A stretch of 32,533 bases of DNA from IMG/VR virus record IMGVR_UViG_3300034073_000475, positions 1 to 32,533 of that record, one strand, 5' to 3'. The notes under the pieces are model-generated. The model was not told where the DNA came from. It did no database searches and worked only from the letters and a program-made list of their open reading frames with translations. Below, in pieces: positions 7,082-29,768 of the stretch. The stretch is from a virus. The translations under genes were made by a program, and so were the position numbers. Within the stretch, counting starts at the first letter, position 1. Each line of letters starts with the position of its first letter.

Positions 7082-8575
7082 CTATCCCAATAAAGATGGA
7101 TAACGGAGTTGTGCTGGCCCAAGCAAAGGTGCAATGCCAGGAACCGAGGGTCTTTGGCCTAACAGACCGTAGATACCAGAGTAATCCACACCCATAGGTT
7201 GAAAGGGTGCTTGTTGTTGCGGGAAGCCTGTAGCGGTTTGCTGTCCACCACCTAAAAGCTGATTTGCTAGGTTTGCACCTCTTAGTGCGTCTGTGATGGA
7301 GATGTTTGGAAGTATTGAGCCAGGAATATCCTGAATAACGGGTTGCCCTAAAACATTCGGGTCGTTGATAAACGAACCTGGGTCTCCAAGAACAGGTGTA
7401 GCACCAGTAGGAGTAAATCCAGCCTCTGTTACTGTCCCGCCACTTACAGGAACAGATAACCCCTGTCCACCGCCCATGCTAGGCAATGCGGGAACCTGTG
7501 GAAGTTGTAAGCCCTCTCCCGCAGTCCCAGAAAGTAATCCTGTTTCGCCTATTGTTGCAAGTTGTTCTGGGCTTGTGCCACCTAAAAGACTGTAGTCCTG
7601 TGCGCCCAAACCCAAGTTAACAGGAAGAACGCTTGCGCCTAATGCGGGTGCTAAATCTGCTGCTGCAAGTTTTAAGCCCTCAGAAACAACATCTGGAGCA
7701 AGTTGCAATCCAGCAGCCTCGCCCGCAGGAACCTTAAAGCCAAGGCCGCCTACATCTGCACCGCCAGCGGTTAAAGAGTAATCCACTCCAGGCGCAGGTG
7801 TGGGCAATACGGACGCCACAGTTGCCGCACTAAGGCCACCCATCAGCCCTGCTTTAAGTGGGTCTACACCTGCTGCACCAGCAGCCGCACCTCGCAATCC
7901 TGCCGCAACTAAAGGTTGTCCAGTAGCAAATCCGATTAATTCGGGAAGAAGTGGGATGCTACCAACTGCCTGACCAATGCCACTAACAATCTCACCGATA
8001 AATCCAAACGGAGACTTGGTGTAGGTATAACGCCCTTGGCTTGTGCCTGTTACATTCTGACCATCGTAACCAGATGTTCCTGGTGGCTGAATCCATGTGG
8101 ACTGAGCTTTGCCCATAGGGGTTGTGACATAGACGGGCTTGCCGCCAATCTCACTTACGCCTTGGATTGCGCCCATCTGCATACCTTTTCCAAGGTCTTT
8201 GCCTATCTCATAACTGCGGACGCTACTAACAAGTTTTCTCTCTGATGCTACATCCGCAGGAACTAAAAAGCCTGTTGTAGACCAGCCCTTTTTTTCAAAT
8301 GCCGTGTCATAGTTGTTTACGCCAGCAAGGTCTACATAAACGCCCTCTGTTCCTAACGCCTTTAGGTTGTCACCAACAATAAGGTTGCCGAGGTATCTTT
8401 GCCTGTCACCAGATATGATGCCCTTTTCCGCAATGTTCTGAGGAATGAAGGTATATTCTTGGCCGCTAACCTTAAACTGACCAGCAACCTTATCGCCTTG
8501 GCTGTTGTAGTCGTAAAGAAACGAGCCACTATCAAAAGTAAGGTCACCAAACTTCTCGGTGGTAATGGTAGCCAT
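7082..8575 (-). CDS. Virion structural protein, unknown
   Basis: 497 aa. The first ~150 residues look globular and beta-rich (ITTEKFGDLTFDSGSFLYDY). From about 180 to 300 come Gly/Ala hydrophobic helices (GLRGAAAGAAGVDPLKAGL), and the C-terminal third is Gly/Pro/Gln-rich and repetitive. Its stop and start interlock with its neighbours, which are both virion proteins. The membrane-like Gly/Ala helices could suit a protein that helps DNA cross the envelope. I do not recognise the family. Confidence 0.6.
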   Translation of the reverse strand: MATITTEKFGDLTFDSGSFLYDYNSQGDKVAGQFKVSGQEYTFIPQNIAEKGIISGDRQRYLGNLIVGDNLKALGTEGVYVDLAGVNNYDTAFEKKGWSTTGFLVPADVASERKLVSSVRSYEIGKDLGKGMQMGAIQGVSEIGGKPVYVTTPMGKAQSTWIQPPGTSGYDGQNVTGTSQGRYTYTKSPFGFIGEIVSGIGQAVGSIPLLPELIGFATGQPLVAAGLRGAAAGAAGVDPLKAGLMGGLSAATVASVLPTPAPGVDYSLTAGGADVGGLGFKVPAGEAAGLQLAPDVVSEGLKLAAADLAPALGASVLPVNLGLGAQDYSLLGGTSPEQLATIGETGLLSGTAGEGLQLPQVPALPSMGGGQGLSVPVSGGTVTEAGFTPTGATPVLGDPGSFINDPNVLGQPVIQDIPGSILPNISITDALRGANLANQLLGGGQQTATGFPQQQAPFQPMGVDYSGIYGLLGQRPSVPGIAPLLGPAQLRYPSLLG

Positions 8576-27278: not shown

Positions 27279-27444
27279 TTTCCCTCCTATATGCTTGTCG
27301 CATCTCGCGCTGCTCCTCTTTATAAAATTTTTTGTGACAGGCCAACTTTGCATCCTCAAGCGTCACTTTATGTTTCTGCATAAGCCATTTTACAAACTCA
27401 ACTTTTTTCTTACCAAGGGGCAGTTTTTCCCAATTAGTCTGCAT
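27268..27444 (-). CDS. Small helical basic protein, 58 aa
   Basis: From ATG at 27444 with GGAGG four bases upstream. It begins MQTNWEKLPLGKKKVEFVKW and ends YRRENDT, all highly charged and helical. It overlaps the upstream gene's stop by 11 bases and the next start by 11. It fills what would otherwise be an empty 150-base stretch. I do not recognise the family; it is probably DNA binding or a helicase-loader partner by context. Confidence 0.68.
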   Translation of the reverse strand: MQTNWEKLPLGKKKVEFVKWLMQKHKVTLEDAKLACHKKFYKEEQREMRQAYRRENDT

Positions 27445-27742
27445 AAGCCCTCCTAAATTTAGCCAGCTTCTCCTCGCTTGGCGTTGGTCTGTAGGTTAGT
27501 TGTGGTTGGTCAAAATAGTTTGGAGCCTTCTTACACAGGTCTTTGAACTGGATAAGGTTGGGCGGTCTCTCGCCAAGCATACTCAGGCCATACTTGATCT
27601 GCTCTACAGTAAAGCCTCTAAGGTCATCTGCCCACGCACCCTTTACTTCATCCAAAGGCATACCGTCAAACTTCCGAGTCCACTCCGACCCGTAGGTAAC
27701 CAGCATCTTGTTCCACAAGGCATCTATGATTTGAAGGTTCAT
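27434..27742 (-). CDS. Lambda P-like replication protein (helicase loader candidate)
   Basis: 102 aa. The pattern LWNKMLVTYGSEWTRKFDG, then VKGAWADDLRGFTVEQIKYGLSML and RPPNLIQFKDLCK, resembles the phage replication protein P/DnaI-like family: W-aromatic start, W-x3-L-x-G-x3-qI-x2-Gl, PP-x-l-x-eF-x2-lC. Such proteins bring host DnaB helicase to the origin. It is coupled by ATGA to the O-like gene, mirroring lambda O-P. No ATPase motif is present. Confidence 0.55.
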   Translation of the reverse strand: MNLQIIDALWNKMLVTYGSEWTRKFDGMPLDEVKGAWADDLRGFTVEQIKYGLSMLGERPPNLIQFKDLCKKAPNYFDQPQLTYRPTPSEEKLAKFRRAYAD

Positions 27743-28080
27743 AACAGTTGCAACCTCCTCTCACCAGGCCATTTTCTGCCAGTCATCTCTTCCCACTTCT
27801 GCCGCTTCAGCATCTCATCTCTTTCCGCAAAAGACAGGACTGGTGCTTTCTTGGGTGCTTCGTAAACCTCGTCTTCCCAACGCTCGTTTCTAAGCCAAGT
27901 CGCTGCGTGAGGTATGTACATAGGGTTCTGCCATTGCTCCTGCGCCTTCTGTTTATCTAAAGACTCTAACAGCGTCTCTAGAGATGGTCTGACCTGACTG
28001 ACCTGATTCCAGGCTTTTCTAGCCTGTGCCTTATTTACCTTCCTCGGGTAGGCTTCCCAGAACTGCTGAAAATCCTCCAT
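27739..28080 (-). CDS. Replication initiator C-terminal-like protein (O-like)
   Basis: 113 aa. FQQFWEAYPRKVNKAQARKAW at residues 4-24, then NPMYIPHAATWLRNERWEDE near 52-71, is the C-terminal module seen in many phage replication initiators (FWxxYPxKxxKxxAxKxW ... YIPHxxTWL). The usual N-terminal winged-helix origin-binding part is absent; here the module is a stand-alone gene. It probably links origin DNA, P-like protein and helicase. Confidence 0.6.
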   Translation of the reverse strand: MEDFQQFWEAYPRKVNKAQARKAWNQVSQVRPSLETLLESLDKQKAQEQWQNPMYIPHAATWLRNERWEDEVYEAPKKAPVLSFAERDEMLKRQKWEEMTGRKWPGERRLQLL

Positions 28081-28462: not shown

Positions 28463-28670
28463 GTCAATCTCCTAAAAGCCATAGAACGACCAACTAGCAA
28501 AACTTGCGTTTTGCCAGACCTGTAAGGAGATGTATCCCGTAATAACGGTACTCTAGGTGGCCTTACCCACGACTAGACGGATATAGCAGGTGTCGACCCT
28601 GGCTCCGCAGCTACTTATTCTGCGGCCTCTATCCCATCCCCGCCTTCTTCAATACGCTGGCGTTTCGCGC
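28463..28670 (-). promoter_or_regulatory. Structured leader RNA candidate with anti-Shine-Dalgarno
   Basis: No gene is visible in these 208 bases. Reading the minus strand, hairpins follow each other: 28605-28625 (6 bp), 28587-28601 (4 bp, 7-base loop), 28552-28577 (9 bp with one 2-base bulge), 28532-28551 (7 bp with one 2-base bulge) and 28497-28514 (7 bp with GCAA tetraloop). ATCTCCT (RNA from 28531-28525) is the exact complement of the ribosome site AGGAGAT (28473-28467). It looks like a cis-acting RNA. A DNA role such as origin is an alternative. Confidence 0.55.
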
Positions 28671-28760: not shown

Positions 28761-28826
28761 CTTACCTTGTCTAGATGCCAGAGTGTCAATTCCGACCCTG
28801 CTAGGATACCACAAACTAGAAAAAGT

Positions 28827-29768
28827 TCACGCTATTTTGCAAGATCTGAAAAATGCCTCACCGTCTATCACTTCTACAAGCTCTGGGGGCAGAAGTACCC
28901 CGTTCCTGAAGGTAAGCACCGCAAACCCAGAGGCCCACGGCACAGGGTTGTGTTCTAAATACATAAACTGTTGTCCATCAGGTTCTGCAAGCGTCCCTGT
29001 GTCTACACCGTATCTGCGGCCTGTATAGTCTCCCCAGGCAGTTACCTGAAGACGATGTAGGTGGCCTGTGCAAAAGTTAACGCCCGATTTCAAAGCATTG
29101 TTATAGGTGCTATGAATTCCGTTGTGCCACCTGTGTTTAATTACCGTATTGCCGTTGACATCTATGGCATAACAGGTGTGCCAGCCAGGGAAGAAGTCAT
29201 AAAGGTCTGTGTTTGGCATACCAGAGACTTCTGGCGCATTTGTCCTGATATACCGCCATAACCTCGTGTCGTGATTGCCATAAGTCCAGATCTTCTTTGC
29301 GTTCTTAGCCGCGTTCTCGATCTCTCCCATTCTTAGCTGGCAAGCCTCAACCTCTTCTTTAGGTGAGGGCGTTTCGTGTCGGTAGAGTGCGTCATGCCTT
29401 GAAACCCTTGCGCCATCAAACACATCGCCATTTGCAACTACAACATCTACAGGCAGGTTTTTGAGGACTTCTAATAGTGCTTTGTGGGCTACGGTAGCTG
29501 GCCCAGGCCAGTAATGAGCATCGCTAAAAATTACAATAATTCCGTTCGCAAGCTCCACATAAGCCTTTTGCTCGTGGACAACATTGGTCATGGAGACCTG
29601 TTTGGCATTGAAAGAAAGCAGGTTAATACCGTACCGCTTTTCAATTCTGTTCCTGCGGTCATAGACATTTCTGACTGTTACCCCAAGGTGCTCGCAAATC
29701 TTTTGCGGGCTACCTAGCCTTTTGAACAACTCTATAAATTCTTCGTCTGTGCAAGTTGGTGCGGGCAT
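28827..29768 (-). CDS. Metallophosphoesterase with N-terminal HTH
   Basis: 313 aa. Residues 8-46 form a helix-turn-helix (SPQKICEHLGVTVRNVYDRR). The calcineurin-type metal site follows: FSDAHYW (D83, H85), NGDVFDG (113-119), YGNHDTRL (163-170), then KHRWHNG and TGHLHR. All metal ligands are present. Families of this type cut nucleic acid or nucleotides, and the HTH suggests DNA binding. It is the second gene of a two-gene operon and starts within the stop of the first (TAATG). Confidence 0.8.
   Translation of the reverse strand: MPAPTCTDEEFIELFKRLGSPQKICEHLGVTVRNVYDRRNRIEKRYGINLLSFNAKQVSMTNVVHEQKAYVELANGIIVIFSDAHYWPGPATVAHKALLEVLKNLPVDVVVANGDVFDGARVSRHDALYRHETPSPKEEVEACQLRMGEIENAAKNAKKIWTYGNHDTRLWRYIRTNAPEVSGMPNTDLYDFFPGWHTCYAIDVNGNTVIKHRWHNGIHSTYNNALKSGVNFCTGHLHRLQVTAWGDYTGRRYGVDTGTLAEPDGQQFMYLEHNPVPWASGFAVLTFRNGVLLPPELVEVIDGEAFFRSCKIA

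Follow-up and report, generated by a model that had tools for sequence, protein, structure and literature searches.

What is the non-coding block at the head of this virus's replication genes? The window, meaning the whole 32,533-nucleotide stretch analyzed (positions 1 to 32,533 of IMG/VR record IMGVR_UViG_3300034073_000475), is a viral record with its replication genes on the minus strand, in which 364 non-coding bases lie between a phosphoesterase gene and a gene for a 61-aa protein. A sequence-only reading had taken up the second part of this block, 28463-28670, as a possible new cis-regulatory RNA in which two exclusive folds, one hiding a ribosome site, would switch the replication genes. 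Below, E1 denotes the first half of the block and E2a the second. The surrounding features are:

29768-28827, minus strand: phosphoesterase gene, the upstream flank of the block
28467-28473, minus strand: ribosome site AGGAGAT of the 61-aa gene, read from the sequence; its complementarity to E2a is not kept in relatives
28462-28277, minus strand: gene for the 61-aa protein, the downstream flank of the block
27739-28080, minus strand: short initiator, 113 aa, confined to the C-terminal domain of phage primosomal/initiator proteins
27434-27742, minus strand: P-like helicase loader (phrog_109, E 4.4e-5)

The short initiator matches phrog_270 at 177-258 of 383, phrog_9327 at 172-252 of 276 and phrog_9474 at 177-251 of 288, such that the 113-aa protein covers initiator-family positions 172-258 only. 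At locus L002 a relative of the window's helicase loader sits after a full-length DUF1376 initiator gene. GC skew, whose minimum near 29-30 kb falls where gene orientation switches, is uninformative; the AlphaFold model of the short initiator was poor (pLDDT 66, pTM 0.28) and was not used as evidence.

A conserved RNA with two covarying pseudoknots

The folding energy of 28463-28670 is unexceptional (z = -1.11, with 31 of 200 shuffles as good), so that comparative evidence must decide whether E2a is structured. In an alignment of 29 distinct copies, where 46 pairs were tested, 97.2% of cells were paired and 24 pairs had changed on both sides, with a covariation score of 0.317, against 0.099 for shuffled and ~0.03 for slid alignments. 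None of 500 shuffles scored as high or reached any of the measures, and the slid controls were 34-45% paired; the compensatory changes thus exceed both kinds of control, as expected of a structured non-coding RNA. RNAalifold, to which the structure was not supplied, yielded the identical nested core and first pseudoknot (PK1). The elements, all on the minus strand, are:

28479-28670: E2a, folded RNA built of nested helices and two pseudoknots and ending in a conserved 3' tail (28496-28479), from the comparative alignment and covariance model
28669-28667/28657-28655: 5' hairpin H1, only 78% paired
28662-28659 (loop) with 28644-28641: pseudoknot PK1, paired in 99.1% of cells, with double-sided changes at 3 of 4 pairs
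28639-28635/28532-28528: closing helix P1, 99.3% paired
28634-28630/28583-28579: P2, enclosing P3 and P4, GGATA/TATCC to GGCTA/TAGCC
28625-28620/28610-28605: P3, five helix types
28601-28598/28590-28587: P4, CAGG/CCTG to CGGG/CCCG
28577-28573/28556-28552 and 28570-28567/28560-28557: P5, interrupted by a 2-base bulge; 96.6% paired, with double-sided changes at 5 of 9 pairs
28566-28561 (P5 loop, GUAAGG) with 28527-28522 (CCUUAC): pseudoknot PK2, 98.3% paired, with double-sided changes at 4 of 6 pairs
28537-28548: hairpin P6, CCGT/ACGG, GCGT/ACGC or GAGT/ACTC
28497-28514: hairpin P7, GCAAAAC-GCAA-GUUUUGC with a GNRA loop; its stem varies with pairing kept, and it was left out of the covariation count

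PK1 occurs as CGCC/GGCG, CTCC/GGAG (L103), CTTC/GAAG (L121), AGTC/GACT (L108) and GACC/GGTC (L063), and P1 as GATG/CATC, AGGG/CCCT (L123) and ACGG/CCGT (L063). PK2, in which the P5 loop pairs with the bases directly 3' of P1, changes from GUAAGG/CCUUAC in the window to CAUG/CAUG (L104), CACG/CGUG (L102), GUUGCG/CGCAAC (L103) and UCAGG/CCUGA (L063). P7 reads ATCAAAC-GCGA-GTTTGAT in L063, and its loop is not GNRA in all relatives.

A covariance model, R1, built on the nested part of E2a gives the window's copy 178 bits and recovers three copies that were not in the model: L165 (E 8.8e-26), L186 (5.5e-32) and L241 (2.4e-38), which had come from a protein search or a neighbouring contig end, independently of R1. 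On this comparative evidence E2a is a new, conserved and autonomous RNA of ~190 nt, with a predicted fold, at the head of the replication genes.

The same conserved fold might in principle act as single-stranded DNA, for example as an origin or packaging structure, given its location at replication genes and the strong inverted repeats, which both strands share. G-U pairs are kept, however, in P1 (28 of 29 copies), P5 (18 of 29) and PK2 (17 of 29), and these become A-C on the other strand; such pairs are typical of RNA and point to a minus-strand RNA, and we regard a DNA structure as very improbable.

Much of what had been seen by eye holds: the 208-base stretch carries no gene, the five minus-strand hairpins correspond to P3, P4, P5 (with its 2-base bulge), P6 and P7, and the GCAA tetraloop is that of P7 (28507-28504; GCGA in L063). 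The proposed closure of three hairpins into a cloverleaf by GGAG 28606-28603 with CTCC gives way to GGATG 28639-28635 with CATCT 28532-28528, favored by both covariation and RNAalifold. Overlooked earlier were PK1, PK2, the 5' hairpin and the adjoining promoter and terminator element (28830-28676).

The complement of the ribosome site

The proposed switch rested on ATCTCCT at 28531-28525, which is indeed complementary, at 7 of 7 positions, to AGGAGAT at 28473-28467 in the window, and would hide that ribosome site. These bases belong first to the 3' side of P1 and then to the beginning of the 3' side of PK2, and they are conserved because they form these two covarying elements. Scoring the relatives with a 7-nt window set one base 3' of the original segment, we found at least 6 bp with the next ribosome site where that site is AGGAG-like (the window, L004, L067 and L071) and also in L133, there across a promoter, but only 3-5 bp in most relatives (L006, L063, L103, L105, L111, L123 and L125). 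The gene next to E2a varies from phage to phage, promoter-like sequences (TTGCAAACAGTTTCTAAAACAGATAATCT) intervene before it in several relatives, and any CUCC complements any strong ribosome site. We therefore reject the switch, whose complementarity to the adjacent ribosome site is not conserved among E2a relatives and which we consider scarcely credible. Of the two findings that had been named in advance as fatal to the proposal as a whole, homologs lacking the match do exist, while the other, an absence of compensatory changes, did not materialize.

The broader proposal, a new structured RNA at the head of the replication genes, fared better, as compensatory changes are present and known families do not match. 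No Rfam 15 family reached its gathering threshold in the window (the best weak match was Mu-gpT-DE, at 12 bits against 49), no known riboswitch or Rfam class matched E2a, and ARAGORN found no tRNA-like identity.

A promoter-proximal terminator element

The first half of the block comprises the following, all on the minus strand:

28803-28830: sigma70-like promoter GTGAAC-16-TATCCT, which overlaps the phosphoesterase stop codon
28676-28797: E1, a pseudoknotted RNA ending in an intrinsic terminator, found in 34 viral stretches
28794-28791/28782-28779: H1 of E1, whose loop 28789-28784 can pair with 28709-28704
28772-28765/28728-28721: P2 of E1, hypervariable yet self-complementary
28760-28742/28706-28683: bulged terminator stem P3 of E1, with the U-run 28683-28676 (U8)

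Most relatives have the promoter ahead of E1, its first box mostly being TTGAAC. The GC-rich stem followed by a U-run, the hallmark of an intrinsic terminator, is conserved across E1 types, and the stem crosses P2. The P2 strands form a mean of 10.2 bp with their own partners against 5.8 bp when crossed between phages, with 37 distinct helices in 45 copies; a helix that is hypervariable but nearly always self-complementary recalls an identity or incompatibility element. In L010 the E1 loop and its partner are altered together (TAGC/GCTA), and other E1 types (L003/L067, L008/L063, L103 and L123) show, by eye, the same order of elements. The E1 5' strand GTCGGAA can also pair with bases just after the terminator, where many E2 elements begin (TTTCCGAC, e.g., in L013, L097 and L101), and in L097 the first bases of E1 and this partner change jointly (ACTGGAA/TTTCCAGT); such pairing is a possible read-through conformation.

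Close relatives without an E2 carry instead what we term type A leaders (L001, L002, L007, L011, L012, L014 and L015), which precede DUF1376 initiator genes and consist of a 5' hairpin with a loop pseudoknot and a helix at or near the ribosome site. The pseudoknot pairs (GTGGAAA/TTTCCAC, GTGAGAA/TTCTCAC, GTGGC/GCCAC) covary, at 6-7 bp with their own partner against 5.2 when crossed, and in L001/L002/L011/L012 a long helix of 13-15 bp covers the initiator gene's ribosome site. Type A leaders, for which no Rfam match was found in the three scanned (L001, L011 and L015), are likely translational attenuators of the replication initiator.

This bears on the main rival to the reading that we favor below, namely that E1-E2 regulates the replication operon in cis as its leader, with E1 attenuating transcription through its terminator and E2 serving as an aptamer or as a leader bound by protein, possibly by the short initiator in an autogenous control. 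E1 immediately follows a promoter and finishes with a terminator, the type A leaders look like a translational version of its pseudoknot topology, and E2a abuts the initiator gene in L067, L071, L103 and L186. On the other hand, E2a stands ahead of several unrelated genes, up to 2 kb from the initiator and with extra promoters between, and its 3' end has no conserved expression platform. A leader function thus fits E1 better than E2, and for the whole module we think it rather unlikely.

Interchangeable RNAs in one slot

The slot after E1 is occupied in different phages by E2a, E2b, E2c, E2d or others (L175), the types apart from E2a and E2c having been recognized by short motifs or by eye. 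Judged by sequence comparison, E2a is one of at least five apparently interchangeable large RNAs in one slot of related phages. E2c is Rfam Betaproteobacteria-1 (RF02932), with 65-103 bits at E2c loci; like E2a it follows directly on the E1 terminator, upstream of a short initiator (L010, L079, L088, L096, L166 and others), although the window's E2a has no match to the 120-nt Rfam model and the two share no covariance match. The element extends ~150 nt beyond those 120 nt and holds a covarying direct repeat. This repeat, of 8-12 nt with an internal and a 3'-end copy (L088 around 7270-7420 on the plus strand, L010, L078, L091, L093 and L096; also L163 and L175), changes between phages in an otherwise conserved RNA (AAGGCGAA, AAGGGGAAGT, AAAGTGCAG, AAGGGCAA, AAGGACAGG, ATCGGATAGTGT); no complementary partner was seen by eye. 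E2d (L013, L085, L094, L100, L181 and L183) is a structured-looking element of ~250 nt with a B12-box-like GAGCCGGTGCAAATCCG (GGTGCAAATCCG in L181/L183); a cobalamin riboswitch was rejected, as L013, L085, L094 and L100 gave no Rfam cobalamin match, and no other Rfam family matched the E2d copies scanned.

Stable, autonomous, swappable modules of variable sequence would suit an arms race, and the slot is shared with Betaproteobacteria-1, an sRNA gene according to Rfam; E2 might accordingly be a trans-acting phage RNA (an sRNA, a decoy against host defence or an RNP scaffold) merely linked to the replication module. This would leave the strict link with truncated initiators, described below, unexplained, and we hold it improbable.

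Distribution and autonomy of E2a

Scanning with the phosphoesterase yielded 64 loci. By pattern, E2a, the second half of the block, was found in nine stretches and E1, the first half, in 34; a relaxed pattern placed E2a on ~45 viral contigs. By blastn, neither E2a nor the E1-E2 of types b, c and d occurred among isolated phages, nor E2a among plasmids, and E2a was found in no GTDB genome: three pattern matches there look like chance coding matches, and two of those genomes had no covariance-model match. Compared with the window, L006 keeps 94% identity in the non-coding block against only 74% in the neighbouring protein, so that the block either experiences selection of its own or is swapped as a whole. 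Different E1 types can precede E2a, and two copies lack E1 altogether: L186, a minimal module in which an upstream stop codon is followed by E2a and, ~60 bases later, the short initiator, and L241, where E2a stands behind its own TATAAT. Outside the four loci where it adjoins the initiator gene, E2a lies hundreds of bases to 2 kb away from it.

The contigs of L092 (with L241) and L001 (with L242) each carry two different replication modules at opposite ends, that of L001 having both module kinds, one per end; this could arise by circular over-assembly where strains within one circular phage population vary just at this point, or it may be a true double module.

Association with truncated initiators

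E2 RNAs are exchanged as modules and are tied to truncated initiators. Wherever an initiator gene was seen at an E2 locus, it lies downstream on the same strand and starts at or near FWxxYPRK, and initiators downstream of E2-type RNAs are as a rule 113-131 aa. Loci from the phosphoesterase scan without an E2 have full initiators with a DUF1376 domain. L001 and L002, where phosphoesterase identity is 93-97%, have a type A leader and a full DUF1376 initiator (PF07120, E 5e-21 to 4e-28), whereas the window and L003-L005 have E1-E2 and a short one; along phrog_9327, L002's full-length initiator spans 1-224, against only ~172-252 for the short initiators.

To avoid choosing loci by their RNA, we also searched with the initiator domain alone, using a seed built from E2-bearing phages. 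This protein-only search gave 78 classed loci, 29 of them short, of which two were cut by contig ends, leaving 27 informative. An E2-type RNA lay upstream in 24 of these 27 and in none of 49 long initiators (Fisher P = 8e-17, a value inflated by descent among related phages); with clustering at 70% identity, the counts were 10 of 13 short against 0 of ~40 long. No E2 was visible at the short initiators of L172, L187, L205 and record MW202674, and we therefore reject a universal rule that short initiators come with such an RNA.

A possible role in replication initiation

That an E2-type RNA accompanies an initiator without its front half suggests that the RNA stands in for that half. We put at slightly below even odds (about 0.48) the reading that E1-E2 is an RNA module of replication initiation, with E2 taking the place of the initiator's missing N-terminal domain. 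More tentatively, and at appreciably lower odds, the swappable large RNAs may replace specifically a DUF1376-type, presumably origin-recognizing, domain, such that initiation would proceed by an RNA and a protein of ~120 residues instead of by one DNA-binding protein. What the E1-E2 region itself holds, at the level of sequence, is a promoter-like element and a non-coding stretch within the replication region; that E2 is transcribed, contacts protein and acts in initiation, we infer.

In the proposed scheme, E2a would normally be made by read-through from E1, the promoter-proximal pseudoknot terminator, which would meter the amount of E2 made. Each E2 type is accompanied by an initiator cut to its C-terminal, presumably helicase-loader-contacting, domain. 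The E1-E2 transcript might mark or open the origin, as an RNA/DNA hybrid or a primer in the manner of the c2 origin transcript or ColE1 RNA II, and/or the E2 RNA might bind the short initiator, which would then recruit the phage loader and helicase. Another small protein could supply origin binding in place of E2, but none is encoded between E2a and the initiator in L067, L071, L103 and L186.

Known systems and significance

ColE1 RNA II, the plasmid primer, is a structured, promoter-driven RNA ahead of a replication start; the proposed likeness to E1-E2 covers these traits, and not the RNase H site, the antisense RNA I or the hybrid formation of the plasmid system. The put RNA of HK022 is a promoter-proximal folded RNA without a terminator of its own. 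E1 resembles put and terminator riboswitches as a folded, promoter-proximal RNA joined to a terminator, and is set apart by its helices crossing the terminator stem and its hypervariable P2. GOLLD and ROOL are large folded non-coding RNAs, some of them in phages, whose role is uncertain; they are far larger than E2a and have different structures, and the Rfam scans gave no match to them. The closest functional precedent is in c2-type lactococcal phages (Ceduovirus), where replication is believed to begin from a promoter-flanked non-coding transcript, the very sequence in which the ori types differ (PMC7150918). This origin transcript, PE1-T, is a promoter-driven non-coding sequence in the early region, as E1-E2 may also be, but it needs no extra phage protein, whereas E1-E2 comes with a truncated initiator and a helicase loader; the likeness drawn here is functional. 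Among open-licence papers we found no description of this E1-E2/short-initiator module.

At the least, E2a adds a well-supported new family of phage RNA, marked by two covarying pseudoknots, and Betaproteobacteria-1 can now be placed within a replication module whose initiator is truncated. If the replacement of a protein domain by RNA is real, RNA and protein would be interchangeable in starting DNA replication within one phage lineage.
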